The position numbers and the translations under genes were made by a program. The notes beneath the pieces are model-generated. The model was not told where the DNA came from. It searched no databases and worked only from the letters and a program-made list of their open reading frames with translations. A stretch of 64,000 nucleotides of DNA, taken from contig FN649755.1 of NCBI GenBank assembly GCA_000310025.1, forward strand, positions 3,941,923-4,005,922, written 5' to 3'. The stretch comes from Ectocarpus siliculosus (Eukaryota; Sar; Phaeophyceae; Ectocarpales; Ectocarpaceae). The number at the start of each line of letters is the position of its first letter. The first letter of the stretch is position 1. Below are positions 17,388 to 40,748 of this stretch, in pieces.

Positions 17388-17390
<3 letters not shown>

Positions 17391-17396
17391 CTTTGA

Positions 17397-18854
17397 TTGA
17401 CACCGGTACCTTGTAATGCAGCATGCGACTCTCGTCCATCTTGCCCAGTTCCCTCCCTTTGGCTTGTGGATGGCTTGTGCTTCGTCTCACAGGTCCCCAC
17501 CCTGCCTCCGGGCGGCTGTGTCCAGTTTGTCGCGTGTTCGTCGTGCCAGACGGAAAACGTGGGACATTACAACTATTGTTGGTCCTGCGGTGTTCAGCCT
17601 GCCCGCGGGCGTCCGGTACCGCGTGACCCCCAAGCGGCTCGGGTGTTGATCGATTTCGACGCGCTGCGCGCTCGGGGTGATCAGGTCCTCTCGGCCGCGT
17701 CTAACCGTCGTGCTCAACAGCGTAAGTGCGCCGTAGCGGACGGGTTCGACGCTTTCATACTTTCGGCGACTCAACAACGTCGGGGTTGGAAGCAGGCGTC
17801 GGACCGAGACGTGTTTGACTATCTCTGCTTCTTGGACACACAAGGTAGTGGTACCAAGTGGGTGCACGACAGGGCATGCCCTGGTGTCGGTACGACTCAC
17901 GGCCGCGATTGCCTTCCAAACTCGCCATGTGCTAAGCGGTATGCTGCCGCGTCCATGCAGAAAGGGATCGTGTCCAAGCTGAAGATGGCGATGCAAGAAC
18001 AGTTGGGAAAAGACAGCAGCTGGGACCCTGCCACGCGCTCGGGCAACCCCTGTTGTAGTCCTCTCGTCGACTCCTACCTCGTCTTCACGGGGGAGGAACA
18101 AAAACGTGTGGGTGTCGCTGTCAACCAGGCAGAGGCTATGTTACCGCACGTCCTCATCGATCTGTTGAGGGACATGCGCTCTCGCGCGCAGACTGCGTCC
18201 TCTTTGGCGGAACGTATTGAGCTCACCAGGGACGTCGCTTTGTTTTCGCTGGCGTTCGCCTCCATGCGGCGAGGCCATGATCTCTCCTTCACTATGGGAT
18301 CGCAAGTTCTGCGGTTGCCCGCGGGGCAGGGTCTGATTTTCAACTTCCAATTCGGCAAGACCCTCCGCGACTCCGTTGATGCCGTGGTCGTGCGTCCGGA
18401 CGTCGCTTGCCCGTCTATTTGTGCTGTAAGCAATGTTACGGCCTACATCAGTGCGGCGGAGGGTATTGGCTGGGATTTGTCCCAAGGACATCTGTTTCCT
18501 ATCGTTCTGCTGGATGGAACTCGGGGCTGTGCTCCGCTTACGGCGGTTCAGATGACGGCTGCCCTACAAGGGCATCTGCGAGCGGCGGGACTGCCGCACC
18601 GCTACACTATGCATTCGTTCCGCGTTGGAGGTTCGGTAGCGCAGTCGCTTGACGGAACGGCGATGGACGCTATCATGAAAATTGCCGGGTGGCGTACGGA
18701 GAGTGTAGCGAAGCGATATGTTGGCGCCACTACTAGTGTGGGGGCAACGGGTTCCAAGAGGATCCGGAGCGAGCTGTACGCAGACTCAAACGCGTTGCCG
18801 TTGTCGGCTGACTTCACATGCGATTTCTCTGCGTGTGCTCGCCGCGAAAAATAA
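17397..18854 (+). CDS. Tyrosine recombinase of the DIRS-like element
   Basis: An open frame of 485 codons. Near residues 48-67 it has a CxxC...CxxC zinc-ribbon-like motif (CSSCQ then CWSCG). The C-terminal half has the tyrosine recombinase signature in order: Arg in ASMRRGHDL, His-x-x-Arg in TMHSFRVGGS, the AGWR block, and Tyr in AKRYVGA, the expected nucleophile. It would cut and join DNA at element integration. The frame has no in-frame ATG until about residue 185, well after the zinc motif, so it is probably expressed by splicing or fusion to the upstream frame. A CACAG-GT acceptor-like site lies near 17490. It is the only intact gene of the element. Confidence 0.85.
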   Translation: MTPVPCNAACDSRPSCPVPSLWLVDGLCFVSQVPTLPPGGCVQFVACSSCQTENVGHYNYCWSCGVQPARGRPVPRDPQAARVLIDFDALRARGDQVLSAASNRRAQQRKCAVADGFDAFILSATQQRRGWKQASDRDVFDYLCFLDTQGSGTKWVHDRACPGVGTTHGRDCLPNSPCAKRYAAASMQKGIVSKLKMAMQEQLGKDSSWDPATRSGNPCCSPLVDSYLVFTGEEQKRVGVAVNQAEAMLPHVLIDLLRDMRSRAQTASSLAERIELTRDVALFSLAFASMRRGHDLSFTMGSQVLRLPAGQGLIFNFQFGKTLRDSVDAVVVRPDVACPSICAVSNVTAYISAAEGIGWDLSQGHLFPIVLLDGTRGCAPLTAVQMTAALQGHLRAAGLPHRYTMHSFRVGGSVAQSLDGTAMDAIMKIAGWRTESVAKRYVGATTSVGATGSKRIRSELYADSNALPLSADFTCDFSACARREK

Positions 18855-21972: not shown

Positions 21973-22149
21973 AGTCCACTGTCCACGAGACGGATCACGA
22001 TTGTTTCCTTTTGCGCCCGCCCCTCTCCCACACTTTCGGGGTTTTGATCATCCGCCCGCCCATGAGCAGCCCATGGACAGCCCATGGACAGCTCATCACG
22101 CCTCCAGCCCGGATAGGTGATGGGGGGGGGGGGGGGGGGGGGGGGGTGG

Positions 22150-22686
22150 NNNNNNNNNNNNNNNNNNNNNNNNNNNNNNNNNNNNNNNNNNNNNNNNNNN
22201 NNNNNNNNNNNNNNNNNNNNNNNNNNNNNNNNNNNNNNNNNNNNNNNNNNNNNNNNNNNNNNNNNNNNNNNNNNNNNNNNNNNNNNNNNNNNNNNNNNNN
22301 NNNNNNNNNNNNNNNNNNNNNNNNNNNNNNNNNNNNNNNNNNNNNNNNNNNNNNNNNNNNNNNNNNNNNNNNNNNNNNNNNNNNNNNNNNNNNNNNNNNN
22401 NNNNNNNNNNNNNNNNNNNNNNNNNNNNNNNNNNNNNNNNNNNNNNNNNNNNNNNNNNNNNNNNNNNNNNNNNNNNNNNNNNNNNNNNNNNNNNNNNNNN
22501 NNNNNNNNNNNNNNNNNNNNNNNNNNNNNNNNNNNNNNNNNNNNNNNNNNNNNNNNNNNNNNNNNNNNNNNNNNNNNNNNNNNNNNNNNNNNNNNNNNNN
22601 NNNNNNNNNNNNNNNNNNNNNNNNNNNNNNNNNNNNNNNNNNNNNNNNNNNNNNNNNNNNNNNNNNNNNNNNNNNNNNNNNNNNNN
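22150..22686. other. Assembly gap (537 N)
   Basis: Unknown bases. The left edge is a 25-G run (22122-22146) and the right edge is inside a SINE-like copy. Open frames drawn across it are artefacts. Confidence 0.99.
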
Positions 22687-22980
22687 AACACAACGTGGTG
22701 CGATCATCCCCCCTTGCCCGGAGTGAGGTTTCTCGACCCCCCACAACATAATCTACTCGACCACCATTATGGTCCCCCCCAAAAAAAAAAAAAAAAACGA
22801 GGTAAAAAAAAAAAACGGTAACCTGGTTGCCGAGTTCACGAAGTGAATTGGCTTGTTTTACGACGTCGTTGCCAAGCGACGAAAACCCAATCCCGATGGC
22901 AAACACCGAGTGGGGGGCTTGTTTTACAACGTCGTTCCCAAGCGACGAAAACCCAAACCCCGATGGCAAACACCGGGGGG
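22687..22980 (+). repeat. SINE-like element, copy 1 (partial)
   Basis: This runs from AACACAACGTGGTGCGATCATCCC through GTTTCTCGACCCCC, CGACCACCATTATGG, A-rich tracts and CGGTAACCTGGTTGCCGAG to a 66-bp tandem duplication (22851-22916 and 22917-about 22980) containing CCAAGCGACGAAAACCCAA. The head is lost in the assembly gap. The same blocks occur at 24484-24675 in the same orientation and at 25862-26130 reversed. Confidence 0.75.
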
Positions 22981-23984
22981 GTTGGTGGGGGGGGGGGTCT
23001 TGAAAGGAGGGAAAACTCCGACGACTATTTGTTCCGGCTCTATTGGTATGCGATCACCACTATGCGCACAGTCACCGCACGTTGATTCACCCTTATCCAT
23101 CTTTCAACGTGACCAATAACATACCAAACGTTTCCAACGTACCCTATCCCTTCAGCAGGCGTTTTCAATGTTTTGCTTGTATCATATCAGTATCGTAGAG
23201 TTTTGGGGGTTCAGTACCTCTTGTGAAAACATAGTATCGTCATCTTGTTGATGATACCCCTTCTTCGCCATCCTTCATACCAAGTAGAGAAGAACATACT
23301 ATTACAGGGGGTGGTATGGCACCCATACGACCACTCCGTCGCCCCCAGGCCCTCGTCACCTATAGTTGCCATATGTGGTTGATCCGCGCTCAGCAGAATA
23401 CCGAGATAATGCACGTCACAGAGTAGGGCGCCTTCTTTATTTTGATGCCCGTGAGTGGGTTTCTTAACGCCAGATATCAGGCAGTCCGTGGTCATGCGGT
23501 GTCGCCTAGCTCATGGATCGAGGACTTGAGATGGAATGAATATATATTGAATGCACGTGGCTCCGTGCTTAGGCATGTCATTTCTGTTAGCGTCGCATCC
23601 CACGCTGACTGGCTTTAGTGTTGGAGTGTAGGACAGGGCACGATGGAGCTGGGCTTCGAACCAATTTGAGCACGACCCTCTTCTCTTCACCTTGTTTGAG
23701 TACCCTTGAGTACGGAATGCAGATCTTTCACTACTACTTGGGGTTGTGGTGGGGTGATATCGACGAACAACACATATTGCTAGACGTGGTCCTCAAAGGG
23801 TTCACTGTTCGTGTGTAAGGTTCCTTGACCACCTGTCATCGACCCAAGGCAGACACGTCGCTACCACGTACCCGGCAGTAGAACTTTCCCGCATCAAGAC
23901 CCCCAGACATTCCCTAACCCAGACCCTACTTCTACTATACGCACTTCATGTTTACCTCCCGGTGTCCGTCCCGCCAAATGGGTG
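22981..23984. other. Non-coding stretch, nothing recognised
   Basis: After a G-rich tract at 22974-23000 there are only short open frames without similarity to known families and no clear repeats. Confidence 0.5.
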
Positions 23985-24020
23985 GGCGGCGATTTTACCA
24001 CCAGGTGGCCGCCGCGCCTA

Positions 24021-24105
24021 CAGGACCGATCACTGATGGCCAATCGTTCTTTCCTACCATGCCAAAGGTGGTTCAAGTCATGTTTCCCTATCCTATCTCT
24101 CCTAG
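24021..24105 (-). repeat. LINE family B 3' fragment, partial copy
   Basis: The plus-strand blocks AGGACCGATCACTGATGGCC, CCAATCGTTC and CCTATCTCTCCTA match the longer LINE family B copies at 24690-25130 and 27030-27600. Only part of the 3' untranslated region is left. Confidence 0.6.
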
Positions 24106-24175
24106 CGTTAGAAATTCCAGGCGTTTCAGCCCACCTACTTTTCAGCCCATATAGCGGTCGTATTCTCCTGGGAGG

Positions 24176-24600
24176 TGAGGGGGGTACTCAATATCGTGCA
24201 TGCCATAGTCGTTAGACTATGGACCTCGAATCCCTACAAAGCCGGGACGGAGCACACCAGGTCCTCACAGGACCAGGCTCGCCATCACCAAGCGCGAAGC
24301 GCCGTGAGGTACACGGAGAGTCGCTTGAAGGGTGCGCTGCATCCTGGTAAGGGTGTTGGGTATCTTGTGCGTACTTCCTGGCATACGGATGACAGCTGCG
24401 AATGGATTCATTTTTTTCTGGTTCTTTCATGTACAGAGACAGATAAAAGCACTGTGCAACTGCCTCGACGATGCTTGGCCAAGTTAACACAACGTGGTGT
24501 GGTCATCCCCTTTTGCACGGAGTGAGGGTTCTCGACCCCAGACAACATGGTGATCGACCACCATCATGGTTGCCGCAATACAAAATGAGGAAGAACAATA
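24176..24600 (+). repeat. SINE-like element, copy 2
   Basis: It begins after a G run with GTACTCAATATCGTGCATGCC and a TAGTCGTTAGACTATGGACC block, somewhat like the 5' part of a tRNA-derived promoter. It goes on through GCGCGAAGCGCCGTGAGGTA, GGTGCGCTGCATCCTG, GATGACAGCTGCG and the AACACAACGTGGTG block. The reversed copy at 25862-26412 has all these in the same order, so the element is about 550 bp. No protein is encoded. A tRNA origin is only an inference. Confidence 0.7.
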
Positions 24601-24689
24601 AGTAGTGGTACACGGGTTATGGACCGCATGACGCGCTCGGCGTGCTCTACAATGTCGTTGCCAAGCGAAGAAAAGACGTCAGCCGGGGA

Positions 24690-25130
24690 GGGGGGGGGGC
24701 GTACTCTTATGTTTTTCATGCCTTAGTGGTTACACCATTGACCACGCGTCCTCGAGAGGACGGAGTATTGTTCCCACAGGACCGATCACCGATGGCCAAT
24801 CGTTCCTTCCTACTTTGCCACAGGTGGCTCAAAAATGTCTTCCCTGGCCTATCTATCCTAACGATATGACTTCCCGCCTTTTCAAACCACTTCTTACTCC
24901 CCAGTACTGCTACCGTCTTCTACTCTCTATTCCATGCCTCAAACATCTCCCTGTACCTCCCTTGTATTTTTCCCAGCGGTCACGTACGCTTACGTCTCCT
25001 TTTTGTACAACTGACATTCCGCGACTACATGAACACGGTCTTCGCATTCGAAGCCGCAATCACGTTTGAACTTGTCGTCTTCGTCGTCTACCGTCCTATG
25101 GCTTCGTCGACGTTCTCAACGTCAGCCGGG
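24690..25130 (-). pseudogene. LINE family B 3' end, copy 2
   Basis: On the minus strand this contains the end of a LINE ORF2 with the cysteine-rich motif DCGFECEDRVHVVAECQ. A 3' untranslated region follows and ends in a run of C (G on the plus strand, near 24686-24696). The coding part is short and interrupted. It matches copy 3 (27030-27600) block by block. The motif resembles the CCHC-type tail of non-LTR retrotransposon polymerases. Confidence 0.7.
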
Positions 25131-25861
25131 CGGCGGACAAAGGTACGGTGAGACTTCGGGGGAAAACGTCGCGGAGGATACATACCTTGCGGTAACGTGC
25201 CGCTCGTGCAGCGCGTCCTTTGACTCAATCACACAGCTTCAGGGGTTTAGCCTGCGGCATATGTGAGGGGAAGTAGGAGAGCCCCAAAACACAGGGTTTC
25301 AATGTGTCCGCATTGACGCCGCAGAGGTGTGGAGAGCATGAACTTCCCCAGCACGTCTTAGACAGCTTGTGAGTGTTACGTTGGGCAGTATTACGGTGTG
25401 CGCTCATGATCATAGGGTCGTGTGCGCGTGCGTGGCCTGTCCAAACACTAAACACCTTTTCAGGACGACGTTGGCGAGCATGGCACACCAACGGTTGTCG
25501 AAATTAAGGGGCCCGTAATACTGTACAGTGTTACGGTATACGTAGCTCTCCGGTAGAGGATACAAGCGGGTGATCCCTTTTGCGGCCGTCCTCTCGACTT
25601 CCTATCCCTCGTGCACAATCACCAATCGCTAACGTCCGGCAATAATTGAGAGGCGTGGACGGAGAGAAACCCACGTGCATGGCAACTAGTCTACCTCGCT
25701 AGGCCTCCGTGAAGGTTTTACATTACATCTACTTCGTAGAATGTAGCTTGTACCTGTGTTTTTTTTTAAATACGTTCAATTGTTTCTTTCTTTTTGGGGG
25801 GTTTGGAGGGGGTCTAGCATTTTTGGGTCATGCAAGCACAATAACAATTATCCCGCACACC
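25131..25861. other. Non-coding stretch, nothing recognised
   Basis: Short frames only. It ends with a poly-C tract (25867-25878) and CCTCCGCCGGAGGGCC, which marks the edge of the reversed SINE-like copy. Confidence 0.5.
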
Positions 25862-26412
25862 TAGCCCCCCCCCCTCCGCCGGAGGGCCCCTCGGTGTTTG
25901 CCATCGGAATTGGGTTTTCGTCGCTTGGCAGCGATGATGGGGGTAAAACAAGCCGGTCGCTTCGTGATCTCGGCAACCAGGTTGCCGCTTTCTTTTCCTT
26001 TGTTTTTTATAGTGCGGTAACTATTTATGGATGGTGGTCGAGTAGATTACGTTGTGCGGGTCGAGAACCCTCACTTGTCGCAAACGGGATGATCGCACCG
26101 CGTTGTGTTAAAATGGTCAAGCACCCTCGAGGCAGTTACAGTGCTGATGACTGTCTCTGGAAGTGAAAGCGCCAGCAAATAAATTAGATCATACGCAGCT
26201 GTCATCCGTACGCAAGGAAGTAAGCACAAGATGCCGAACACCCTTAGCAGGATGCAGCGCACCCTTCATGCAACCCGCCGAATACCTCACGGCGCTTCGC
26301 GCTTGGTGATGTGAGCGCCTGGTCCGGTGAGAACCCGGCGTGCTCCGTCCCGGCATGCGAGGTCCATGGTCTAACGACTACGTCATGCACGACTAAAGTA
26401 CCCTCCCCCCCC
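25862..26412 (-). repeat. SINE-like element, copy 3 (reversed, most complete)
   Basis: Read on the minus strand, this has the same block order as copies 1 and 2 in one continuous unit: GCATGACGTAGTCGTTAGACC, GCGAAGCGCCGTGAGGTA, GATGACAGCTGCG, the AACACAACGCGGTGCG block, CGGCAACCTGGTTGCCGAG and CCAAGCGACGAAAACCCAA. Both ends carry C10-12 followed by CTCC(GC)CGGAGGGCC, so the copy is bounded by similar GC-rich sequence. Copies 1 and 3 face each other and form a large interrupted inverted repeat across 22.7-26.4 kb. Confidence 0.75.
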
Positions 26413-27029
26413 CCTCCCCGGAGGGCCGCGAAGAAAGTTTCTTTTCGCGGTACTTGTAGTTGGTTTTCAAGTCTTAAATAATACGGTAGTGCTTGGGACA
26501 ACCCCCCAAGCTGTAAAGCTCAGAACGTCTCAAAGCTTCTGGGACAAGTCCACCACGACCATTTGACCTTGGGCGAAAACTACAAAATAACATCAACAAA
26601 CAGCACACAGAACGAAATAACACATTATAACCATGCGTGGAACATCATCAATCCAAGCTTACTCGAGCCGGGAAAACACCGGAGAGGGGCTGGCGAGGAG
26701 CCTACGGTAGTGGCTTCACCTTCGCCACGTGCAACACCCGTGACAATTGCAGTTTGCCGTGCGTTGTACTTATTATGCCCGAAGCCCCCCACCTCCCCCA
26801 ACAAGACTAAACAGCCGCTTCTTCGAGCGCTTTCGCCTCGAGCGACTTCATCCTCCCTCCTCCTCCCTAACTCTACCCCTAACTCTCCTCCAACCTCTGC
26901 TACGGTGCCGTTGGCTGCGGTACAGGCAAGCTCGTCCAGGGGCTACGTCGATTGTACTACCGCCGTGCATGAAATGTGCCCCCTTTCAATAGGATTTTAT
27001 TATTTGGACCCGATTTAGTGAGGAAATTG
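26413..27029. other. Non-coding stretch, nothing recognised
   Basis: A proline and serine rich frame at 26563-27018 is of chance length and low complexity. No domains or repeats seen. Confidence 0.5.
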
Positions 27030-27600
27030 CATTGGGGGGGGGCGTACATATATGTTGTGCATGCCTTAGCGGGTACACGTTCTCGAGAGGACGGAGCACT
27101 GTGTTCCCACAGGACCGATCACCGATGGTCAATCGTTTCGTCCTACTTTGCCAAAGGTAGCTCAAAAATGTCTTCCCTAATCCATCTGTCCTATCGATAT
27201 CACTTCCCGCCTTTTCAACCCACCCAGTACAGGTACCGTTTCTCCTGGCTATTCCATGCATCATTCTTCTCCCTGTATCTCCCCTCTACTTTTCGCAGCT
27301 CAGTCATGTCCACTTTCCTCTCCGTCTTGTTCAACGAGCATTCCGCAACTACATGAACAAGGTCTTCGCACTCGGAGCCGCAATCACATTTGAACTTTTC
27401 GTCTTCATCGTCTACGTTCTCGAAGGCCAACATCCCCGGTTCTGAATTTGACCTTAAGCTCTGTCCCGGTACCCATTGGTCCATGTAGGTACTCCTTAAA
27501 CCCTATTCCTTCTTTCAACACTCCGTACAATTCTAGAACCTCCTTTTGCTTGGTTTTTGGTTGCAATCTGTTCTTCTCTCTGGGCACAAGCAACAGGGGG
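27030..27600 (-). pseudogene. LINE family B 3' end, copy 3 (best)
   Basis: The minus strand encodes the end of a non-LTR retrotransposon ORF2 in two overlapping frames. The first (27405-27593) has RLQPKTKQKEVLELYGVL and LKVKFRTGDVGLRERRR. The second (27215-27484) has the zinc-knuckle-like CDCGSECEDLVHVVAEC. A 3' untranslated region of about 180 bp then leads to a C run (27033-27040 on the plus strand is G). One frameshift lies near 27450. No RT core is upstream, so the copy is strongly 5'-truncated, as is usual for LINEs. Confidence 0.75.
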
Positions 27601-28059
27601 GAGCTTCCCCCCCCCCGGAGAGATCCAAAATATAGTTTCGGGGTTAGGCGTCAGCATTTATTTTTTGGTCGCACATTGGGTCACGTCATGATATTTCTCG
27701 TGGTACCTCATTGAGGCTTGGGCACCATAAGAGTATTCTCATGGTGCGTCATGGTACAGTACCCCATGACAGAGAGCGTCGAATCTCTACTGAGCTGCTG
27801 TCGAGTGCCGAGAGCTTCTCCCGAGCGTCTGACGTTGGATCAGCAGCGTAGGTCTATCCTCGATTGATTATTCATGATAAGGGTCGTGTGTGAACAAAAA
27901 CAATAGATGGAATACAGAATGTTGGGTCGCCTCTGTTGTACAATAGACAATAGACTGCTGTGCCCACTAGAAAAAATCACCAATTACACCGGCCTCTTCA
28001 ACCCGGCCATTGCTTCGCATGCTGATAGCGTTCAGGTTTTTTAACGTTGGCAAAGCCGC
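27601..28059. other. Upstream flank of the Ty3/gypsy element
   Basis: No gene. A 5' LTR should lie here if the element were complete, but I see no match to the candidate 3' LTR blocks near 35645 (TCGCATCTTCGATC) and 35932 (CAAGAGATC). The element is probably 5'-truncated or the LTRs have diverged. Confidence 0.5.
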
Positions 28060-29895
28060 ATGAAGTCGCACCGCGCGCGTGTACACAATAAAAATGGCCC
28101 GGGTAAGAGCAGCGGCCATACACAGGGTGACGGCCGCCGCTCTGGGAAACGTAACTCAACTACACACGCACCACCTCCGGCGCCGGCCGTAGGCGCCGCC
28201 GCGACCCCGGCGCCCGCCGCCGTACCTGGAACTCCGTACACTCAAAGTTCCGGAACCCCGCACTCGCGGGGTAACTGACACGCCGGTGACGGCCTTTTGC
28301 ACACATCGCCGTCAACAGCACCGGGTGTGCGCTGTACGACTAGTTCCCAAGATGTTCGTATCACACAGACGCCTTCGGGTTCGCCTATGTTAGTTTCCCA
28401 ACCTTTTATTTCTCAGATGTCGCCTCACGCCTCATCACAGCCTGTTTTGGATGACCGACGTGACTCGTCGGCGCCAAATACAGTCTTGTGGTGTGGGCGA
28501 AAGGCCGACCAGGCTTCGGGTGTCTCACGGACGCTCGCCCCGATGTCTACGCCCCCCGGAGGCATGGCTTCGGCTTCTCCCACCGTTTCGGCGGCTCCGG
28601 GTGATCTCGTCAACCACGCTGGAGCACAGGGACCTTCGGGACAGCCGCAGGCCCGCCGCGGTGGCTCGAGTACGCTTGTACCCACCGCGCCCCCTCCGGA
28701 CCCCTCGCGACGTTCCTCTACGGAGCACCAACGTCGCACGGTGCTGACTGCACGGCCGTTGCCGAGCGCAAGTAATGGTTTCCCCAAATCGGAAGGTTCA
28801 TGTTCTTTGTCACGAAATAGCGGTCCCGAGCCTCCCGCGGCCGCTGACCATGTTGGTCGAGCGCCCGCGATGAAGGCCGCTTTTATTGAACAGGCCTACG
28901 CCGACGTTTTGCGCGAAAACGCCCGCGTAGACCGCTTGGTTTCGCACGCTTCTGCGGCTGGTTCACCGCTCTTGCCTGCCTCTCCTCGTAACCCACAATC
29001 CGGCCCGCCTTCGGGCGGCACCCAGATTGTCCTGCCGGTTGCCGGTGCCATTTCTCTTGATGATATTTCTTCGAGGAAGGTAAGCGCACCCGCGCGGCAG
29101 GCCCCTGTTTTTGACGGTTGTCAGGAATACTATAACGATGAGGTTTTCCTCTTTTGGAAACCGCCGTCCTTTCTGTCTAACTGGACGCCCTGTGAGTTCT
29201 CGGTTCATGGCATTCGCTACGTGTGCGGCGAACAGTTCATAATGGCGGAGAAGGCCCGCATTTTCGGCGATGATGCCGCTTATGCCAAAATCATGGCTAC
29301 CTCCGACCCGAGAGAACACAAGTCCCTTGGTCGCAAGGTACGCGGTTTTGACCATGCTCTATGGGAGCTCCGGCGCGAGGATGTTGTCTTTTCGCTTTTG
29401 TATGCGAAATTCGCCCAAAATGCTGACGCGCGTGAACGTTTGTTGGCTACGGGTGATAGACAGATAGCAGAGGCCAGTCCTTATGACGGATTGTGGGGCA
29501 TTGGTGTTGATGCCTCCGATCCGCGTGCGGCGTCGCCCTCCAAGTGGACTGGTAAAAACCTCTTGGGCAAAGCGCTTGTTGCGACGCGCACGCTTCTGCG
29601 TGTGCGCCCGGTCGAGCCCGATAAGCCTTTACGCCCTGAACACTCGGGGCAACCTGCTCCCGTGTGTCCCACTATCCACGAAATTGCGCCCCCGGGTGAG
29701 GACTCTTCGGTCAATGATTCCTCGCCCGAGGACGCTCGCGGCCCGCTGGACGTGCCAGCCAACATGCCCGCGGACCACTCGAAACAGGTGCTGCATATTG
29801 CCTCTGCTGCTTTTCGCGAAGCCGCCGCTTCCCCACCGCCGCTATTGGCGGAACACGGCCCAGATTTGGTGAGCGGTGATGTTTTAGTAGATTGA
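28060..29895 (+). CDS. Gag-position ORF with C-terminal NADAR (YbiA-like) domain
   Basis: ATG at 28060 opens a basic, Ala/Pro-rich segment (MKSHRARVHNKN). This meets a TGA at 28276-28278 and the same frame then runs open to the TGA at 29893-29895. The first 270 codons after that TGA are low-complexity Ser/Pro/Thr rich, with no capsid fold or CCHC zinc knuckle visible. A complete NADAR domain lies at about 29107-29602: LFWKPPSFLSNW, GEQFIMAEKARIFGD, LGRKVRGFDHALW, ERLLATGDRQIAEASP, DGLWGIG and WTGKNLLGKAL. The Glu of GEQFIMAEK and the WGIG and W-G-N-LGK blocks are family hallmarks. Known NADAR proteins are N-glycosidases that act on riboflavin-pathway intermediates or remove ADP-ribose from nucleic-acid guanine. 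Its role here is unknown. Confidence 0.85.
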
Positions 29896-30864
29896 GATAC
29901 CTCTACGACGCGAGTCCGCGTTCATAGTGGTACCGGAGCCGTGTGTACAGCGCCTGGTGTAGCCCTTTTGGACTCGGGCTCACCTTCATCTTTCATTAGT
30001 GATTCTTTCCTTGAAGCCATGGAGGTGTCAGGAGCTGCATCTGTCCACAGCCGTCGTTCGGTGCCCGTTCGGCAGTGGGGTGGTTTTGGCTCTGGCAATG
30101 CTCTTGAAACCACCTCATCCGTGCGGCTGTCCGTTCAATTTTTTTATGGTGATAGTGCCACCGCTTCGTTAACGTTGTGGGTGTATGTTGTCCCAGCTGC
30201 CGCCACGGGTCACGCCCTCCTTCTTGGACGTGATAGTTGGATGCGTTTTAACTCTCGTTTGTCCACTACTTTGCCCACGCGGTCGGCAAGTGGACGCATT
30301 ATGGAGAAACTTTCTCTGTCATCGGATTTTACGACGGGAGCTTCCGCGTATGTCGCTGGACCCTCCGCCCCCGGGGCATCTTACTTCCTGCGGTACGCCG
30401 GCAGGAAGGGTGTCTCCCTTTCCGATAAACCCACTTTGACGAGGGTGAACCTCGTTCTCAACTCTGGCACCCCCGCTCTCACCGGCAACTATCTTGTCAC
30501 GTTTTTACCGAAACACGGCGCCCTCTCGGCGTCGGACGCGTTTGTTTCGGACGGGCCTCAACACATCCCATTGACAGGGTGCGCCGAGTTGGAGCCAGGT
30601 GAGGTGCTTGGAGTGGCGACTGCCCCACTTGTGCAGATTCCGCTTGCGTCGATTGATCCTACACCGCAGACGGCCGAGGGTGTTGGGTTGAGTGACCCTC
30701 CGCCGCCAGCCTGTTCCGCGGATGGGCCGCCGTCTCGCGTGAATTCTTTGCATTCAAACATCCCGGTTGCGGATCCGGAGATCTCGAATTCTCCTGCGCC
30801 TCACTGCCGCCGAAACCGCCGCCACCGGATCTGTTGGAACGCCTCTCAGAAGCGCAGCGAGTGA
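29896..30864 (+). CDS. Retroviral-type aspartic protease
   Basis: The frame follows the NADAR ORF directly in the same phase after a TGA, so a readthrough gag-pro fusion is possible. The catalytic motif is LLDSGSPSSFIS (D-S-G), and the later ALLLGRDSW is the flap-distal ILGxDW-like block, at the usual distance of about 85 residues. It would cleave the polyprotein. The last 190 residues have no recognised domain and lead toward RT. The frame ends with TGA at 30862-30864, with RT continuing in other frames. Confidence 0.75.
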   Translation, partial: DTSTTRVRVHSGTGAVCTAPGVALLDSGSPSSFISDSFLEAMEVSGAASVHSRRSVPVRQWGGFGSGNALETTSSVRLSVQFFYGDSATASLTLWVYVVPAAATGHALLLGRDSWMRFNSRLSTTLPTRSASGRIMEKLSLSSDFTTGASAYVAGPSAPGASYFLRYAGRKGVSLSDKPTLTRVNLVLNSGTPALTGNYLVTFLPKHGALSASDAFVSDGPQHIPLTGCAELEPGEVLGVATAPLVQIPLASIDPTPQTAEGVGLSDPPPPACSADGPPSRVNSLHSNIPVADPEISNSPAPHCRRNRRHRICWNASQKRSE

Positions 30865-32330
30865 GTTTTCGCGAGTTGTGGCAACGTTTGCCTGCACATT
30901 GCACGATGTGACTTTTGATTTACATGACTCGGGTTGGACCCCGGAAGCCATCGACAGCCTGGCGGATGTGCTGTGTGACTTTTCGGATGTGTTTTCGCGG
31001 TCACCGTCCGATTTCGGTTGCTGTTCCGTGAAACCGTTTCGTGTGGAAGTGCCCCCGGGAACGAAACCGTTGGCTTCGCGTCCCTATAGGCTCAACCCTC
31101 TGGTGGAAAAAGGTCGATGCAATTCTCGACCAATACCTTGCTGCCGGTCTTATTCAGACCTCGCAATCGCCGTGGGCGAGCCCTCTGGTTGTCATGCCTA
31201 AAAAGGACGGAAATATCTGCGTTTGACCGTGAACTACAAAAAGCTTAACAAATTGTGCAGCCTTGGTCAACAACCGCAGCCGCGAGTTGACCACATCATC
31301 GATTCCCTGCACAAGGGGAAGGTGTTTTCCATTTTCGATCTTAACTCCGCTTTCCACCAAATCACCGTCGAAGAGGACACGGTTCAGCTTACGGCGTTTT
31401 GTACGCCCACGCAACTTTTCGAGTGGCTCCGTATGCCTCAGGGAAGCTCCGTGGCACCGTCGTGGTTCACCATGGTCATCAACGAAGTGGTTAAAGGTCT
31501 GGACCATGTGCTTGCATACCTGGACGATGTGATTGGTTTGACGCCGACCCCATCCACCATGTCGCCAACATACGGATATTTTTGGAGCGTTTGGGCAAGT
31601 TCAACCTCAAGCTTTCTCCTGTCAAGAGTCACGTCGGCGCTAAGGAGGCTGTGTATTTAGGTCACACAATCTCCCCTGCGGGTATTAGTCCTCGTGCCGA
31701 TAAGGTCGAAGCCCTCACAAAAACGCCGCTGCCTAACAACGTCAAAAAGCTGCGTTCCTTGCTGGGTGGGCTTTCGTATTACCGCAAACTCATCAAGGGT
31801 TTGGCCATGCGCGTGAAACCACTCACAGACCTTTTGCGTAAGGACGCGAAGTTTTGTTTTACGCCGGCTATGGCGGATACCGTCAAAGAACTCTTGGCGA
31901 AACTGTCAGAACCTCCGGTTTTGGCTTTCCCGGATTGGGACGCTGTCGCAGATGGCGGCCGCCCTCTCCGGCTTTGCTGTGATGCCTGTATCGATGGTTT
32001 TGGTGCGGCCCTTGAACAGGAACAGGCCGATGGTTCCATCCGTCCCATTCTGTTCGTTAGCCGAGCTACGCTCGAATCCGAGCGCAACTGGACAGTGCTC
32101 GACTTGGAAGCTGGAAGTATCGTGTGGGCAATTAATCGCTTACGCGGTTATTTTTGGTCCACGCACTTTCTGATTTATTCGGATCACAAGGCTTTGGAGA
32201 GCATCGTCAAGGTGGGTGAACACAACGCCCGCGTCCAACGTTGGCTCGAGTTCCTTCCTCGTTCAATTACACCCTTGTCTACCGCAAAGGCACTGCCAAC
32301 GCCAATGCGGATTTTCTTTCGCGGTTGCCC
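30800..32330 (+). pseudogene. Ty3/gypsy reverse transcriptase and RNase H, frameshifted
   Basis: RT blocks in order are ILDQYLAAGLIQTSQSPWAS, VVMPKKDG, FSIFDLNSAFHQI, MPQGSSVAPSWF and the catalytic YLDD at 31517-31528. Then come VYLGHTISPAGI and the thumb block LRSLLGGLSYYR. RNase H follows from about 31975 with LCCDACIDGFGAALEQ (Asp at 31981), NWTVLDLEAGSIVWA and IYSDHKALE, ending in the YRKGTANANADFLSR block. At least five frame changes are needed (near 30900, 31110, 31215, 31550 and 32260) but hardly any internal stop. The enzyme would make element cDNA in the cytoplasm. This copy cannot express it in one piece. Confidence 0.85.
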
Positions 32331-32339
32331 CTGCCGGCA

Positions 32340-33110
32340 ACCGACGCGGATAGACACGGTCACACCAGTATCGCAGTCGATGACGCCGCGGGCGTGTATC
32401 TCATTCGTGCGTGCGGGCGGAGTTATCACTCTAGTTCGACGCCGAACATCGGCTTGGGTGGGCTTGACATTGACGATCAACGACACGCGTTGGCACACGC
32501 GCCTCTGACGGAGGACGACTTTGGGGACTTCCGCCGTTTTGGGCCACAAATGGTCCTGCCGGCTCTGTCGCCCTCCTCCGTAGTGGATTCGTCGAAATTT
32601 TCGCCGCCTGGTGTTTTCGCTGTCGTTTGCGATGCAGCCCCCGAGAGTTCTGTGCCCGATGGACCTCCTCCGGCTTCCGTTTCTGCGGAGCCAGACGTCG
32701 CTCCCTCGTCCACCGTCGGAACCTCCTCAGCTGCCCTGTCGCTTTCGCGTGGCCCTCTGATTTCTTCTCGTACCCGGGCGAGAACGAATTCGGCCTCGGG
32801 CATGGCTCACAGCCGTCCCAATTATTTTCCGCAACAACCACGGGCCGTTGTGGTGCCCAGACCGCCGCGACCTCCTCGAACGCCGGCCCGGTCGAGCCGT
32901 GCCGCGCGGTCTACGAGAACCGTGGGTAGCCCTACTTCTGGCCCGCTGCCTTCTTCGGCGCCGGCTGAATTGCAGCCGCCGCCGCCCGCGCCTGCTGCCG
33001 CCACCCCGGCGCCACCGCCGCCCGCGGCGCCCATGCCGCCAGTATTGTCGCCCGCAGGTACTAGCCCTGCGACTTCCGTGGTGCCGCCCACGGCCGCTGA
33101 GGAAGCTCAC
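32340..33110 (+). CDS. Pro/Ala/Ser-rich spacer between RNase H and integrase
   Basis: The open frame 32241-33575 continues from the end of RNase H into about 250 residues rich in Pro, Ala, Ser and Arg. It includes RPPRPPRTPARSSRAARS and PPPPAPAAATPAPPPP. It then passes into the region before the integrase zinc finger (AEEAHLRDCVHTF onward). Most Ty3 elements have only a short linker here. The stretch is GC-rich and likely disordered. It may be a real spacer or expanded low-complexity sequence. Confidence 0.6.
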
Positions 33111-33301
33111 CTCCGCGACTGTGTACATACATTCTCGCATGCCGATTGGGCCCGAGAACAGCTGTCAGCAAGTGAGTGTGTCGCGGTTATACATTTTTTG
33201 TCTTTGGGATCCCCGGCGGTTTTGCCGGATACATTCTGGGATTGCTTGCCCTGTGCGCGACGGCCGGCGTTCTCTGATGTTGTCGCCCTCGCATCTAAAA
33301 C

Positions 33302-34530
33302 ATGCCTACACACACAGACGATGGTACGCGATTGTTGGTGCGAAATTCTGCCCCACTGCCTATCGGTAGTTCGGGCGGGCGTATCACTCGCCTCCCGCCT
33401 TCGAAGACCCCGCGCATATACGTGCCTATGCTATTGCGACCTTGGGTCCTACAAGCATGTCACGCCACCGCGTCTTTTCACCTGGGCACCGCTCGGACTT
33501 TCCGTATGTTGGAGCGATTTTTCTGGTGGATTGGGATGGATTTGTCCGTTCGTTGGTGGCTTCGGCATTGTTTAATTTGCCAAGCGCGCAAGACTTCCCG
33601 GCAAACGTATCGTTGGCCTACGCTCACTCTGCCCCTCCCGAATGGGCCGGGTATTGTAGTAAGCGTCGATTTTTTCGGGCCATTGCCGGTCACGTCCCGT
33701 GGGAATGCATATATACTTTTGTTTACGGACCGTTTCAGTCGACGGGCGGATATGTACGCCACTACCAAGGCGGAATTTACCGCTAAAGGAACGGCTAACA
33801 TTTTCGTCAACCCCTACATGGCGTTGTGGGGTTGTCCGGTGACTCTTCTTTCGGATAACGGTATGCAATTTTGTTCCAAGTTGTCCTTGGCTATTTACGG
33901 GCTGATGAAGATCAAGAAAGTCACCACCAGTTCGTACCACCCCCAAACTAACGGTGGGGCCGAGCGTGTTAACCACACCATGGCTCAAACGCTTGCTGTT
34001 GTGGTCAATGAGCGTCAGGACGATTGGGACGTCCATCTTCCCCATGTCGAATTTGCGTACAACAACTCGGTAAACACCGCCACAGGTTTGGCGCCAAATG
34101 AAGTGCATATTTGGACGTTTGCCCCGTCTCCCGCTTTCTGTTTTGGACCACCCTAGCGTGGGTGGCCATCAAAGTTTGGATCGAGACCAGCTCGCTTTCT
34201 GCAATCTTGCGGTTGAACGCCAGAGACGAGCTTACGCGTTGGTGCGGGAACAACATGCGATTACGGTGTCGCGTGTCGACCGTCGTAACTCTGCACTGTT
34301 GGACGGTCTGCGTCAGATCCCGAAATACGAAGTTGGTGGTTGGGCTTGGGTCTACAACTCTGCCGCTACTATTCGGCAGGGTGTGCGGAAACACACCGAT
34401 GATTCGGTGCTCAAAGCGAAGCTTTCGCTCGACTGCACCGGACCGTATAAAATCCTTGCTGTTGGCCCGGCTAAAGCGGAGGATTCACCGGATGGAAAAC
34501 CTGTGGAGCGCAAACTTCTCTACCGTCAGA
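33302..34530 (+). pseudogene. Ty3/gypsy integrase with GPY/F-type C-terminus, frameshifted
   Basis: The zinc-binding HHCC domain is seen as HATASFHLGTART then HCLICQARK (33461-33581). The catalytic DDE core has Asp in VSVDFFGPLP (about 33667), Asp in LLSDNGMQFCSKL (about 33855) and Glu in PQTNGGAERVNH (about 33961). A frameshift near 34110 leads to the C-terminal part, with VREQHAITVSRVDRRNS, GGWAWVYNSAATIRQG and the CTGPYKIL block, which fits the GPY/F module. The product would insert cDNA into chromatin. The DDE triad is intact. Confidence 0.85.
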
Positions 34531-34531
34531 C

Positions 34532-35340
34532 ATGCTGGGACCAGAATCCCGCAACCGTGTCTCCGTCTTGCGGTGCAAACCGTGTACCAACCCATACGAC
34601 ACGGATGACCTGCCTAAGTATATGCCGGCCAATCTGTCGAAATATGTTTTGCACTCGTATAGTAACAAGTCTCCCCCGAATAATTTGACTGCTGATGATA
34701 TTTTAGCGGAGTCTAGTCGTCTGGATGTTGAGAATATTTCAGGACACCAAATTGTACGTGGACGCGGTGGTGTGGTAGCTGTCTTGTACCTGACTCATTG
34801 GATTGGTTTGTTGACACCGTCGTGGGAAAGGGAGTCTGATTTGCAGGAATACAGAAAACACATTCTGCTTTACTGGTCTGGTAACGCTAGTCAGCGCGTA
34901 CAAGGAAACCGAGCTTATCGCAATGCTCGGATAGCTTCGGCCGACCGAGAACTTGCTCGGAATCAGGCCGAACGTTTCATTGCTCCTGGGTACGAGTTGG
35001 TTTCGGGTGACATTTGGTTGGCTCGCTTCTCTGTTTCTGTTTTGCCCGTCGGAGCCCACATTTGGTACAAAGCTTTGGATGGACTTTGGTGGCTTGGGCA
35101 GGTTAGTAGTTTCGTAACAGGCCAGCACATTGTTCGATTTTTGGACACCCCCGGCCCTTGAAAGCTTTCTCTCCCAGAGTATAGTTACTCCACGGTTTTG
35201 GATGCTCCTTGTGGTTCTTGGTGCTTGCAAAAACACCGTACTCGTGGTTTGAGCAACCCTTCCACGGATGATCGCGTTACGTCGCGAACACCAGGCGTTG
35301 TGGCACAGCTGGCTGTTGCCCCATCTGGATCTGTGCTTTG
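34532..35340 (+). pseudogene. Chromodomain plus Tudor-like tail of the integrase
   Basis: Frame 34532-35161 contains a chromodomain at about 34723-34875: VENISGHQIVRGRGG, VAVLYLTHWIG and SWERESDLQEY. After a basic linker there is a Tudor-like module at about 35039-35160 (GAHIWYKALDGLWWLGQVSS and HIVRFLDTPGP). A TGA at 35159-35161 interrupts the frame, but the same phase continues with KLSLPEYSYST and CGSWCLQKHRTRG. The decayed copy at 48190-49275 shows the same blocks, including VRFLDEPGPIKIAL and GSWCLQGHRG. Chromodomains steer integration to modified histones; a paired Tudor-like reader is inferred. Confidence 0.75.
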
Positions 35341-35540
35341 ATATCATGCCGCCTACGGGCCGCTACATGTTTTTTATGTTTGTTCTACATCGTACGCAGT
35401 GGTACGCTAGCGCGTGTTTGGGTGGTGTGAGCTTCTTCCATTGTTGCAATAGTCACCCCGACTTTTGCGTGCCCAACGCGACCGAACCCCATTTTGATTC
35501 AGATTGGTTCCGTCGTTGGCGATGTGATTCTCAGTAGTCA

Positions 35541-36000
35541 TCATTGTGTGGTGGGGGGATGGTTTGGAGTATTTGTCGGGGATGAAATATTTTCTCTGAC
35601 CCTAGTTGCTTTTAATTTTTCTTATTTTGTCTGATTTGGAAAGTCGCATCTTCGATCTTTATTTGAGGTTGAGTATTGGATTGAAGATAAAGTATCTGCA
35701 TCTACGACTTCCCAGGGTGGGCTAATGTAATGGAGCAACTAGTGTATATGCATTGTACGAGCGTTTCATGAACGTTGTATGAGCGCTTGTTGGATATTTT
35801 GAATTTTCTTTGGATATGGATATTTGGCGACGTTGAGGGGTATTGAAGTAGCTTGAAGGAAGATCGAATTCCCAGCCCCGCTCCCTCACTCTCAGAGTGG
35901 GCGCTGAGCGGACCTGGTCTAAGAAGGCTAAAACAAGAGATCAAACAACAACAACTGTGAGTACCCGAAGCCTTGAGCAACGAGCTTGCTCCCTTCCCTC
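35541..36000 (+). repeat. Candidate 3' LTR region of the Ty3/gypsy element
   Basis: The blocks TCGCATCTTCGAT (about 35645) and CAAGAGATCAAACAACAAC (about 35932) lie 287 nt apart. On the minus strand after the decayed chromovirus, TCGCATCTTCGATTC and CAAGAGATTAATAAACAAG occur in the same order about 246 nt apart (47316-47577). Conserved non-coding blocks at the same place in two copies suggest an LTR, but without a 5' partner its ends cannot be fixed. Confidence 0.4.
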
Positions 36001-36400
36001 TTTTATTTCTCTGTTCCTCCAGAAGAGGTGACCAAGATATTACACCCCTGGATCGTGAACATTCTAAGAAAGTTGTTTGTCATTTCGCGACGGAAGAGGA
36101 TTACTTCTGGTATCTATAGGATCAAAGCGACAGCTTTGGGAAAGCCTCACGGCACCATTCCGACAACCCCACTCTGCTGTGGACTACGTCGTCATCGATC
36201 GTTGTTACATGGGCCAGGGGGGTGATATCTTGTGTCATATACGACACTGATCACCATGTTGGCACCGTTGCACTTTTTTGCGGTGGAGATTGGGGCCGGG
36301 GGTGTGACATATTCTGTCGCCTACGGCGTGCACAGAAAACTATAGCCACCTACATCCAATATGGATTTCCGGAGTTTGCAGTATTGCAGTAAAACATCTG
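36001..36400. other. Non-coding stretch, nothing recognised
   Basis: Short frames only between the candidate LTR and the second GTCCRTGGAC array. Confidence 0.5.
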
Positions 36401-36610
36401 GTCCGTGGACGTCCGTGGACGTCCATGGACGTTTCCGTGGGCCGTCCACGGATGTGGGTGGACGCGTCCGTTGACCACCGTCCATGGACGTCCACGGACA
36501 ATTGGCCGTAGACGTCCATGGACTTTTCCACGGACACTTCACTGGACGTGCCCACGGGCGTCCACGGACAACGTCCACGAGCGTCTTTCCGGTGTCCATG
36601 GACACGTCCA
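36401..36610. repeat. GTCCRTGGAC palindrome array, copy 2
   Basis: About 210 bp of GTCCGTGGAC, GTCCATGGAC and variants at 10-12 bp spacing, like the array at 21777-21972. Flanking DNA differs between the two arrays, so the motif itself is what has spread or is maintained. Confidence 0.9.
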
Positions 36611-39600
36611 TTGTAATGTCAAATAATGTAAATCATTGACACATTACATACCCTCCGTGCAACCCTACATGCAATCTAGCCATGGGCACATGATGACATG
36701 CCGTACCTGTTGTTGTCAAGTGGTCAACATGTACATCATGACTATGACGTCATACCGACGTTGTGCAAAAGCGGGTGTAGAGAGTTATTCAGCGATGCAC
36801 GTATTGCATTCAGGGATGGCCGCGGCACGGCAAAGTACATACATACACAGCGTTTCAGGGATCATACCTCAGCGTTCGCGAGATCGTTTCCACCGGAATG
36901 CACACGGCAGATTGACGGGTTCGTTTGGTGCCACGGTGTCGACGCGTGCGGATCGATTACTGAGAATGGTGCCGCCGCGTCGCAATTTTTTCCATCGCAC
37001 ATGATGATGTTTGATTGTTTTGATGTTCAACGAGGTGAAGCGCAACTGGTATGTAGAACAACCGAAGGAAGAGGGATGTACTAATCCAAGGCTGATGGAA
37101 AGTCGGTGGCCATACCCAACGAGATGCATCGTTTGTTGAGCACAACGGCGATCCGCCTCCTCTATCGGGTTCTGCTTGTTGTTGCAACATGTTTAGCGAT
37201 TAAATTGCGGCAGGTATGTGGACGCCTGAAGTAAGAGGGATGTACCAGTCAGTTCAAATGAAGGACCGAAGCCGATGGAATTTCGGCAGCCAGGTCATGA
37301 GGCGATTTTCACATGGGCTTGCAATCCAAAGATAATGTCGTTCATGTCCGCAGTTTCTACTTGGAACAACTGGGTTCTGCAACGGCCACCACCATGTCAG
37401 ACGACAGTACTCTACTTTGTCCGAGGTTTACGCATTGATGAAGGCAAGGGTTCCCTTGTTGCGCGCCGAAACAATAAACTACCACGTGCGTCCACTTGTA
37501 ATATCGAGTCTAACGCATCGCGACCCTGTGAGTAAAATGTAACATGTGGTACGGCTGTGTGACAAGCAGCGTAATCCTCCCTCTCGGCCTCTCTGATTTA
37601 CGGTACTCAAATCTCCCAAGCCGCATGTCCGCTTGTTGGTGAAGCCTGTATTATCAGCTGAAGAAAACGCTGACTTGGCGTCTGCATGTCAAGTAATGTG
37701 TCCCCAGTGAAGTTTCTGTCACAATTAGCCAGCCCTCGTCCCGGGACTGTGCAGCCCTCGTTCTGGAACTACATGTTTTTAATGCGAAGACGACAACAAC
37801 AACAACAATATCCTGCAACAACCCTAACAGCGTGCTGCGCACAGTAGTTGGAGTGTTAGACGAGACCTTCACTGACACCAATAGAGCGGCCATATGTAGC
37901 ATGACCTCGGCGACGACGGTAGCGCTGTGTATGAACACTGTATAGCGTCTACAGTCTTTTTGCAACTCTGCAGCACAAGGACTTTCGCGTTGAGCGGTCT
38001 GCTACAGTACACTGAACACGATCGATCTGTCCCCACGCTATCGCCTTGAAAGCCGAGCTGTTGTTGTCAGCGAGCAAACATATTAATCAATAGTCTACAG
38101 CAGTGGTTTGCCCAGGGCCAGCGCAATGATATCAATTTCTAGCCAGCACGAGTTGCTTTGGAAAGAATCGCATGGTCGAGACGGTGGTTGATTGTGTGCT
38201 GCCGTTACTGGGCGTTGCTGGCGTCACTTGCAAGAAGAGGGGCAGAGCCGGGAAACAAGGGGGGGGCGCGACGAGAGTTGGTTGTCGAAGTCGGCCGGTA
38301 CGGACATGCATGAGCGACAAGAAGCACAGAAGTGACTGTTGCGCGATTCTGGCGTCAAGCATTCCACGCCCACATTCATTCGCGCATGCATCGTGATACC
38401 GCTTTGATTCTTGGTGGGTGTCGAATTAACGCCTCTTCCACTCTCTCTCTCTCTGGAACGATGAAACCCTAAAGTGAACACGCATACAGAATGGAGATCG
38501 ATGCGGCGTCTTCATGGATGGCTTTTGGCATAGAAAACGGTAAACATGCACGTACGAATCATGCGAAAACGGCCGGAGGAATATTGGAGGCCTAGTGGTG
38601 TCGTTTCGTGGTAGTGAAAATAGAACGCACTTGCACGCATGACCCTTGCAGGTATTGAAAAATGACATTTAGTCACGTAGCTTGAGACCGCCAACGTTTG
38701 GCTGTGCCGATTTACGCTGCAGCCACTGGGCCGCTGAGTTTGACCCAACGAAACTTAGACCGAGGAGTCACTAGGAACTTGGGTGACATTGCACCGAACC
38801 AACACGACAAACCCAAATAATCGTTTGGCATGTCTAAATGTACGAACCTCCGGAGAGAGAAGTTGTGCCTTCGTACCGTGGTCTAAGCAACGTATTCAGT
38901 ACATCCAGACCATACTTTAACCTCTTGGAGTGTTTTGGTCACCGCGCGGGTTTTTGTGCGGACGTCTCCAGCTCACACCATGGAGTGAGTGCGGGACAGT
39001 TCAACCCATCTACCTGTCAATTCGCCAAGATGCATTGCGCCCGTCGAATTCCCACCTCCCACCACACCTCACTACGCGCAACACCACCACCGACTCAGGG
39101 TCAAATCACTACGGAAACAACTATAGACATGGTTCGGTGGAGATAATCAGTTGTGCTCCCGTTCGAACGGCTTCGACACTACGGTGTGAGAGAAAATACA
39201 TACCATGGAAATATATGCGTAGGTCCGGTCACAACCCCGATATTGGCAACGACTGACTGTGAGTCAGGTTGAGCTGTGTCGTCGGCCCCCGCTCGCTCGA
39301 TTCGTGCCTGTCGCTGCAACGCTACAACGTAGAACGAACCAAGTGGAGCATGTTAACGCGCATCATCGACCTGGCACCGTTCTCACCTTGGTACCTTTTG
39401 GAGGTGGTGGCGAATGCGGAGTGACATGTTCTTCGACATTTCCCCGAATCAATCGCGGATAGACGCAGAAAGCGTTTGGCCGCTGTTCCCTGTGCCTGTT
39501 CGAGCTTCGGGTTATCACAAAAAATAAATGCCGAACGCGCGAATGAAGGTGCAAGTACGCCGATATTTGAAGCTACAGTACGTCCACAGCGATTTCCTCT

Positions 39601-40748
39601 GGACAGCTGCAATATAGTACTACAGCCGTTCCTCCGTTTCTCCGGATGGCGGTTGCGACTATATGTTCTATCGAAAAACGGACAGACGTAGGCGCCCTTC
39701 GGATCCACACGGCGTGCCTCACACGACAGACTACGAACTTGAGCGACACGCTTTTTGTGGGACGAGTTCGCAGCGGTATTCCTGAAAGTGCATCATCACC
39801 TCACATGGTTTTGTGTCGACACAGTTAGCGCCCGCGATGACGAAATTGTTTCATGAGAAACGAAGGTCAATATATTGGCGATAAATATGAAAAATCGACC
39901 AAGAATCACACCTCAGCCGTTGATCCTACACTAAACTCTACATAATGACCTATGCTTGACGGTGGCGACGAACTGAGACGTTTTGCCTCGACCCCAAATT
40001 GTCGTTTCTTAAACGCGCGCCCTAGCTGTAGGATTTCATTCCGCGACTTGGTGTCAGCCTCCACGACGACGGGACGTTTAACTTGACCTGTCGTGTCCCA
40101 TTGGAACCACGACTCCAATCAATATCAACGTGTACCTACAATACATCGATGATCGATTTTCGCTTTCGGCCAAACAAGTTGCTTGTCAACTATACGTATC
40201 CACCTGACAGGATCGATTATTCAACCTGGTGACTGACCGAACCAACATTCAAGGAGTCCAGACGCCTTTACCCAAACGCCCCTCCTCGAGACGGAAGAAC
40301 TGTGACCGGTGTCTCCAGAAGGAGGCCAGTTGGGAAGAATTATAGACAGGGAAGACGGCTAGAGTGGTGCCACGGTAGGGGGGTCACCCCATATTACATT
40401 TTCGAGTAGGGAGGCACAGTCTAGGCTAACCTGTTGGATGCAACGTACTGATATAGAATCACGGAAACAGAATGACACGTTTTTTTCTGAAAAGACTACA
40501 GAAAGTTGTAACCCCAGTACACCCCCTACTCCTCAGCGTGGACTGGTGCGGCCATGACGCCTGTCCGCGGGTTGTCATCCTTGGACCTCTGGTATCCGGA
40601 TAGCTTTTTCGTCTACCAATTAGATGGCCAACAAGCTGTACAGCATTTTCATTGTTAACGGAAAGGCATACAATCAAGGAAAGACTACTCATTCGAGAAA
40701 ATACCACAGTCGAAAGTGGGAAGAAACCCATGCATCCATCTGAATAGT
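36611..40748. other. Non-coding stretch
   Basis: No gene recognised. It includes a reversed partial GTT-tract repeat (37755-37805) and a CT microsatellite (about 38437-38455). Remaining frames are of chance length. Confidence 0.55.
37755..37805 (-). repeat. GTT-tract dispersed repeat, copy 2 (reversed, partial)
   Basis: A GGAACT block, a T run, AATGCGAAGACGA and (CAA)5 match the reverse complement of 11830-11870. Only the first half of the repeat is present. Confidence 0.5.

Follow-up and report, generated by a model that had tools for sequence, protein, structure and literature searches.

The sequence studied here raises three connected questions: why an LTR (long terminal repeat) retrotransposon would carry a NADAR domain, where in its polyprotein the domain sits, and how it is made. 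The locus lies in a stretch of 64,000 nucleotides of the brown alga Ectocarpus siliculosus (GenBank assembly GCA_000310025.1, contig FN649755.1, positions 3,941,923 to 4,005,922, forward strand), hereafter the window. A preliminary description of this DNA had placed a NADAR (YbiA-like) domain in the gag position of a Ty3/gypsy chromovirus. We found that the window element is a 5′-truncated, frame-broken member of a NADAR-bearing Ty3/gypsy (Metaviridae) LTR retrotransposon lineage of brown algae. Coordinates of this copy are positions in the window, all on the plus strand.

The combination of Gag, NADAR and Pol counts as already known from a report on Ectocarpus of September 2025, and the earlier suggestion of an undescribed system is not supported. 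Dinatale et al. (PMC12477816) described a NADAR Gypsy lineage with Gypsy-12_Ec32 as an example, and the window element shares its defining arrangement, a NADAR domain at the N-terminus of a gypsy Pol in an Ectocarpus-type genome. The main text of that paper nowhere uses the terms readthrough, stop codon or frameshift, and the portions of it examined contain no residue-level active-site analysis or selection test. Among the papers listed in our literature searches, no other was seen to treat NADAR in transposable elements. As far as our searches show, the readthrough signal, the conservation of the active site, and the tests of selection and co-inheritance are additions.

The element carries a complete YbiA-type NADAR domain

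The open frame at 28279-29895, the 5′ part of the Pol open reading frame (ORF), consists of a low-complexity leader with an SQDVR motif followed by NADAR, and ends at a stop codon. A complete PF08719 match lies at 29152-29601 (E 3.1e-46, 158.1 bits versus a cut-off of 35.1). Directly behind it, in the same phase, the frame 29896-30864 encodes an aspartic protease region with an LLDSGS motif (RVP_2 E 0.011, below cut-off). Both the domain and its in-phase protease neighbor, as first described, were thus confirmed.

The NADAR domain is 34% identical to the NADAR of Phytophthora nicotianae (PDB 8BAU) and 29% identical to Escherichia coli YbiA (2B3W), and is predicted to adopt the NADAR fold; unlike these two proteins, it belongs to a retroelement polyprotein. 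We compared the ADP-ribose-contact residues across five subfamilies (A to E) whose synonymous sites are saturated, and 9 of 11 were identical. Of 33 copies, 32 have Glu at the position of P. nicotianae E125 and one has a stop there; all 24 proteins inspected (P0007-P0009, P0149, P0152, P0153 and P0155-P0172) also have Glu. The Asp that marks the DarT1-associated (BC4488) NADAR antitoxin at this position is replaced by Glu. With Glu rather than Asp or His, the element domain is assigned by its sequence to the YbiA subfamily.

Eukaryotic and YbiA-type NADARs hydrolyze guanine-linked ADP-ribose on DNA (PMC11543638, PMC11125620), and their physiological roles across eukaryotes have been described as unclear (PMC11125620). 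From the predicted fold and the contact residues, we infer an ADP-ribosyl hydrolase/N-glycosidase activity for the element domain. Its active site appears strongly conserved, and the domain seems fit for catalysis and under selection, in support of the earlier proposal that a Ty3/gypsy element captured a NADAR enzyme.

NADAR lies between Gag and the protease

To locate the beginning of the element, we aligned the window to 10 distinct copies of its own subfamily (L003 and L057 being the same place). Homology starts abruptly at 27977 in six copies (L002, L003 = L057, L005, L006, L040 and L055), and at 28050, 28356, 28536 and 28776 in L004, L007, L058 and L053, respectively. The Gag region of P0002, a protein of Ectocarpus sp. 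CCAP 1310/34, found no match in the window when used as a query. A search for an LTR pair in 22000-40000 found none, and no 5′ LTR was found in the window. Judged from these comparisons, the window copy is without its 5′ LTR and most of Gag; a 3′ remnant of the Gag ORF remains at 27977-28275, with 77 codons open before the stop.

Among 20 sliced relatives of every kind, 15 have a Gag-like region upstream of NADAR. Therefore, NADAR sits between Gag and the protease, and neither the gag position nor the "unusual Gag" of the preliminary description applies. No capsid had been seen because this copy lost its Gag; the remark was accurate for the window copy and does not extend to the family. The label of the putative Gag rests on its position and on similarity between copies: searches of Pfam and PDB gave nothing above threshold and no convincing PDB relative, and the zinc-knuckle matches of one Gag frame, out of three, fell short of the cut-off (E 0.12 and 0.31). 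At the family level, LTRs, Gag, protease, reverse transcriptase (RT), RNase H and integrase follow the order of LTR retrotransposons (Metaviridae). In L058, on the minus strand of its locus, an LTR directly precedes the NADAR region and Gag is missing; this copy is perhaps a deletion derivative.

A UGA-C stop and a predicted pseudoknot mark the Gag-Pol junction

In related copies, Gag and NADAR-Pol share one frame that is split by a single stop, which in the window is the UGA at 28276-28278, followed by C. Of 33 distinct copies, 28 have a junction that could be read (8 of 12 in A, all 4 in B, both in C, all 11 in D and 3 of 4 in E), and every one of these has UGA followed by C. The search anchors themselves held UGA-C and allowed 5 substitutions and 1 insertion or deletion; at most 2 substitutions were encountered.

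A stem can form in every subfamily, starting 5 to 9 bases past the stop, and its loop can pair downstream. In the window, the predicted stem S1 (28287-28314; arms 28287-28293 and 28308-28314) begins 8 nt past the stop, and in the predicted pseudoknot stem S2 (28298-28331) the loop bases 28298-28304 pair with 28325-28331. The pseudoknot is predicted in all five subfamilies; in four of them, taken singly, chance is an unlikely explanation. With 400 dinucleotide shuffles as the background, P was 0.005 for A, 0.075 for B, 0.005 for C (copy L038), 0.0025 for D and 0.0125 for E; with all positions of the same slices as the background, it was 0.0020, 0.067, 0.0047 (L033), 0.0020 and 0.0042, respectively, giving a Fisher-combined, position-based P of 1.2e-7, a generous value as discussed below. 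The base pairs vary between subfamilies and the pairing is kept. Further, an SQD[VA]R peptide lies between the UGA and the first Pol AUG in subfamilies A, B and C.

This layout resembles the gag stop of Candida Tca2 and of murine leukemia virus (MuLV), with one in-frame stop, an 8-nt spacer and a downstream pseudoknot; UGA-C is known as the Sindbis signal, and the layout of Tca2 has been described as MuLV-like (PMC2194720). Unlike Tca2 and MuLV, the present element is a brown-algal Ty3/gypsy with a UGA-C context, NADAR as the first Pol domain and a spacer that is not purine-rich. The UGA-C junction and downstream pseudoknot suggest that NADAR is probably made only by reading through the UGA, as Gag-NADAR-Pol, and carried into particles. 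As a separate observation, the SQD[AV]R string stands before the gag stop in E and after it in A to D; it may be a motif for cleavage or binding that has shifted from one side of the junction to the other.

NADAR is probably inherited with the element and kept by selection

We scanned the genome (189,456,909 bases in 492 contigs) and found at least 150 NADAR places over the cut-off (230 candidates, 150 of them scored). With RT-RNase H of the lineage as query there were 602 candidates, and the 104 that were scored, all at E 1e-60 or better, were compared with the listed NADAR places plus five more. At 91 of these 104 RT places, NADAR lies 0.5 to 6 kb upstream on the same strand (median distance, 1533 bases). 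The other 13 have no upstream NADAR among the matches listed, at least one of them being too near a contig end; copies lacking NADAR, named earlier as a point that would count against capture, are thus a minority of the places listed. In each of the 30 NADAR loci retrieved for their best scores, among them that of the window, the protease follows NADAR, and no chimeric assembly junction was found. Several copies have open frames of more than 2000 residues. The five best protein matches of the window element are from Ectocarpus sp. CCAP 1310/34, the top one with 84% identity over 59% of the query.

The preliminary description had proposed a comparison of the domain between copies. Within subfamilies, NADAR pN/pS was 0.25 for A (n = 12), 0.16 for B (n = 4), 0.09 for C (n = 2), 0.66 for D (n = 11) and 0.42 for E (n = 4); the higher values of D and E may reflect decay of inserted copies together with few changes. 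Between subfamilies, pS was 0.75 to 0.87, which is saturated, and pN was 0.23 to 0.36. NADAR and protease distances were correlated with r 0.93 over 23 elements (Mantel test; reached by 0 of 2000 permutations), where 23 of 24 elements were used and subfamily A was absent, its chosen copy being without the motif. NADAR was more conserved than the protease in 88% of pairs. A domain inherited with, and needed by, the element would show this pattern.

These data bear on whether NADAR is neutral cargo, through chance fusion of a host gene, as the preliminary description allowed, or through an assembly chimera. The brown-algal host NADAR gene (P0035, P0043, P0044 and P0053) could be a donor for such a fusion. 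Set against this are the presence of NADAR in five diverged, synonymously saturated subfamilies and in NADAR-protease proteins of other assemblies, its place upstream of most listed RT matches, and the distance correlation. We regard neutral cargo as highly improbable; saturation, the constant protease neighbor and the RT places rule out chance fusion or chimeric assembly as a general account.

The source of the domain may be bacterial or host

NADAR proteins of the element kind, with 39 to 59% identity to subfamily B, occur in other assemblies (P0149, P0152, P0153, P0155-P0172 and others), many of them on ENA contigs that are several hundred kilobases long. We built a tree of 63 rows, comprising 58 hand-picked from 176 domain-bearing proteins and the five subfamily sequences. 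In this tree, P0153 is almost indistinguishable from subfamily D and quite possibly comes from Ectocarpus, and P0156, P0158-P0162 and P0164-P0172 group in a clade of their own, separate from the five subfamilies (100/100). Of the element rows, 28 of 29 fall in one group that is not firmly supported (84/63). P0157, a NADAR-protease protein, stands outside this group in the best tree; forcing it inside costs nothing (p-AU 0.519), and it may belong with the element group.

The best tree joins the element NADARs with brown-algal host genes (81/84). An alternative tree, in which the host genes are left out and the elements are grouped with nine rows that lie around Nannocystis and a planctomycete, fits no worse (p-AU 0.489), so that both a bacterial and a host source are tenable on the sequences. 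PMC12477816 suggests possible horizontal transfer from bacteria, whereas neither tree is rejected here. In the genome, two exon-sized matches to an Ectocarpus fasciculatus NADAR gene (71 and 89% identity, about 1.4 kb apart) at C24:2125206-2127003 on the minus strand mark a probable intron-containing host NADAR gene, whose relatives occur in Pylaiella, Scytosiphon and Ectocarpus (P0043, P0053, P0044 and P0035). The element domain may derive from this host gene or be related to it. A viral source was also considered: a scan of IMG/VR contigs with one alignment (A2) gave four relatives, the best with 42% identity, and the NADAR part was matched by 676 phage records, the best listed with 39 to 47% identity; neither result points to such a source. 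Elsewhere, the JGI protein P0012 has NADAR fused to WD40 repeats.

A possible role of NADAR in the particle

Our best guess, and the most economical function for the domain, is that it clears ADP-ribose from the element's own RNA or cDNA. In intact members, Gag would be the main product and end at the UGA. Some ribosomes may read through, aided by UGA-C and the pseudoknot, to yield a Gag-NADAR-protease-RT-RNase H-integrase fusion, in places perhaps with a chromodomain, whose architecture is recognized from sequence. NADAR would thus enter the particle at Pol stoichiometry, as a small share of Gag, and be freed by the protease. Inside the particle, it may act as a YbiA-type ADP-ribosyl hydrolase/N-glycosidase and, in the least certain step, remove guanine-linked ADP-ribose from the RNA or cDNA, and host ADP-ribosylation would thereby be kept from blocking reverse transcription or integration. 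We give the whole account, from the lineage through UGA readthrough to the particle-borne eraser, an even chance of being correct.

Several points weigh against this account. Its readthrough, particle and activity steps are argued from sequence and model. The pseudoknot P values are generous because the stems were viewed by eye before the search ranges were set and the five subfamilies are related, and the pseudoknot of subfamily B does not reach significance by itself. In D, codon 14 is the first AUG and comes before the SQD[VA]R motif; E is without the motif after the UGA, and a similar string, NSQDAR, stands ahead of the stop (5′ part of L050, oriented ORF end 2426). The leader from UGA to first AUG is weakly constrained outside the motif, with pN/pS of 0.18 for A, 0.76 for B, 2.06 for C and 1.15 for E, values that come from few changes (of six pairs in B, three could be used; D showed no changes). 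DarT and Tpt1 gave no match in the host genome, where introns could hide them, and PARP gave four short exon-sized matches, so that no host nucleic-acid ADP-ribosyltransferase was identified. Viral NADARs, those of phages above all, might prefer soluble ADP-ribose derivatives (PMC9503650). Moreover, readthrough of Tca2, which has the same layout of UGA and pseudoknot, was not demonstrable in yeast (PMC2194720).

The Tca2 result also fits production of Pol by another route, such as re-initiation, transcription from an internal promoter, splicing that skips the stop, or decoding of the UGA as selenocysteine. UGA also serves as the selenocysteine codon. Set against such a route are the frame, kept across the UGA in all five subfamilies, the peptide conserved ahead of the first AUG in three of them, and the likeness of spacer and stem to readthrough signals; we consider the route unlikely.

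As for the substrate, NADAR could instead cleave small molecules in the particle or cytosol, such as ADP-ribose-derived immune signals or riboflavin intermediates. YbiA acts as an N-glycosidase on riboflavin intermediates, action on soluble ADP-ribose derivatives has been predicted (PMC9503650, PMC9303266), and the residues kept in the element domain bind ADP-ribose itself. A Pol-level fusion to Gag would place NADAR with nucleic acid, an odd location for a cytosolic metabolite enzyme, and we find this alternative rather doubtful. NADAR might also be an RNA-processing or RNA-binding module for packaging, priming, or handling of the cap or 5′ end, with catalysis secondary. The authors of PMC12477816 proposed processing of the RNA intermediate, and the nematode NADAR protein SNA-3 acts in SL1 trans-splicing, where key NADAR residues matter (PMC9303266). 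A purely structural role would not need the ligand-contact residues that are kept while the linkers diverge, and we judge this alternative quite unlikely.

Should NADAR prove to be an active hydrolase carried in the particle, LTR retrotransposons would be added to the bacteria, phages, giant viruses and RNA viruses that use NADAR-type erasers of ADP-ribose, and the search for a eukaryotic defense based on nucleic-acid ADP-ribosylation could turn to brown algae. Very tentatively, the algal host might mark foreign RNA or cDNA by guanine ADP-ribosylation and the retroelement bring the eraser into its particle through UGA readthrough, a eukaryotic counterpart of DarT-NADAR warfare. The element offers a defined, testable case, with a conserved active site, known neighbors, and a predicted production route and stoichiometry. 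NADAR is likewise embedded in a mobile-element protein in the Tx1 LINE ORF1 of the Pacific oyster, another element type in which it is reported as divergent (PMC12477816), and in the polyproteins of positive-strand RNA viruses, again a different type of element (PMC9503650).

Layout of the window copy and other elements in the window

The stop at 29893-29895 between NADAR and the protease is not common to the four other copies examined there. Downstream of the protease, an RT piece at 31202-31660 (RVT_1 E 8.3e-21) is followed in another frame by the RT end and RNase H at 31495-32508 (RT_RNaseH E 2.2e-27). A proline/alanine-rich linker frame without a Pfam match at E 0.1 (32220-33575) leads from RNase H to the integrase piece at 33299-34156 (Integrase_H2C2 E 6.1e-15, rve E 4.1e-9); in P0175, the linker counterpart spans about 390 residues (RNase H end 685, H2C2 start 1072). 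The window copy is considered broken because the RT, RNase H and integrase frames shift and the LTR pair is missing. Its 3′ LTR (35726-36021, 296 bases, TG...CA) matches the LTR ends of other copies and sets the element end at 36021.

The term chromovirus found no clear support. The chromodomain-like stretch at 34727-34873 matches PF00385 at E 0.042, below cut-off, and a Chromo match at E 1 was absent from P0149, P0150, P0175, P0176 and P0179, some of which are partial. By RT, the chromodomain Gypsy lineages of Ectocarpus do not group with chromoviruses (PMC12477816).

The window contains no second NADAR match. At 15049-18854 on the plus strand, an RT-like frame (RVT_1 E 0.0019) is followed by a weak tyrosine-recombinase match (Phage_integrase E 0.059), both below cut-off, which we take to be a DIRS/Ngaro-like remnant. 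A LINE-like reverse transcriptase frame lies at 56618-57706 on the minus strand (RVT_1 E 7.8e-26). Other gypsy remnants, at 48410-48957 and 52091-52395 on the minus strand and 54317-54733 on the plus strand, share 39 to 64% identity with the integrase and C-terminal parts of the NADAR element.
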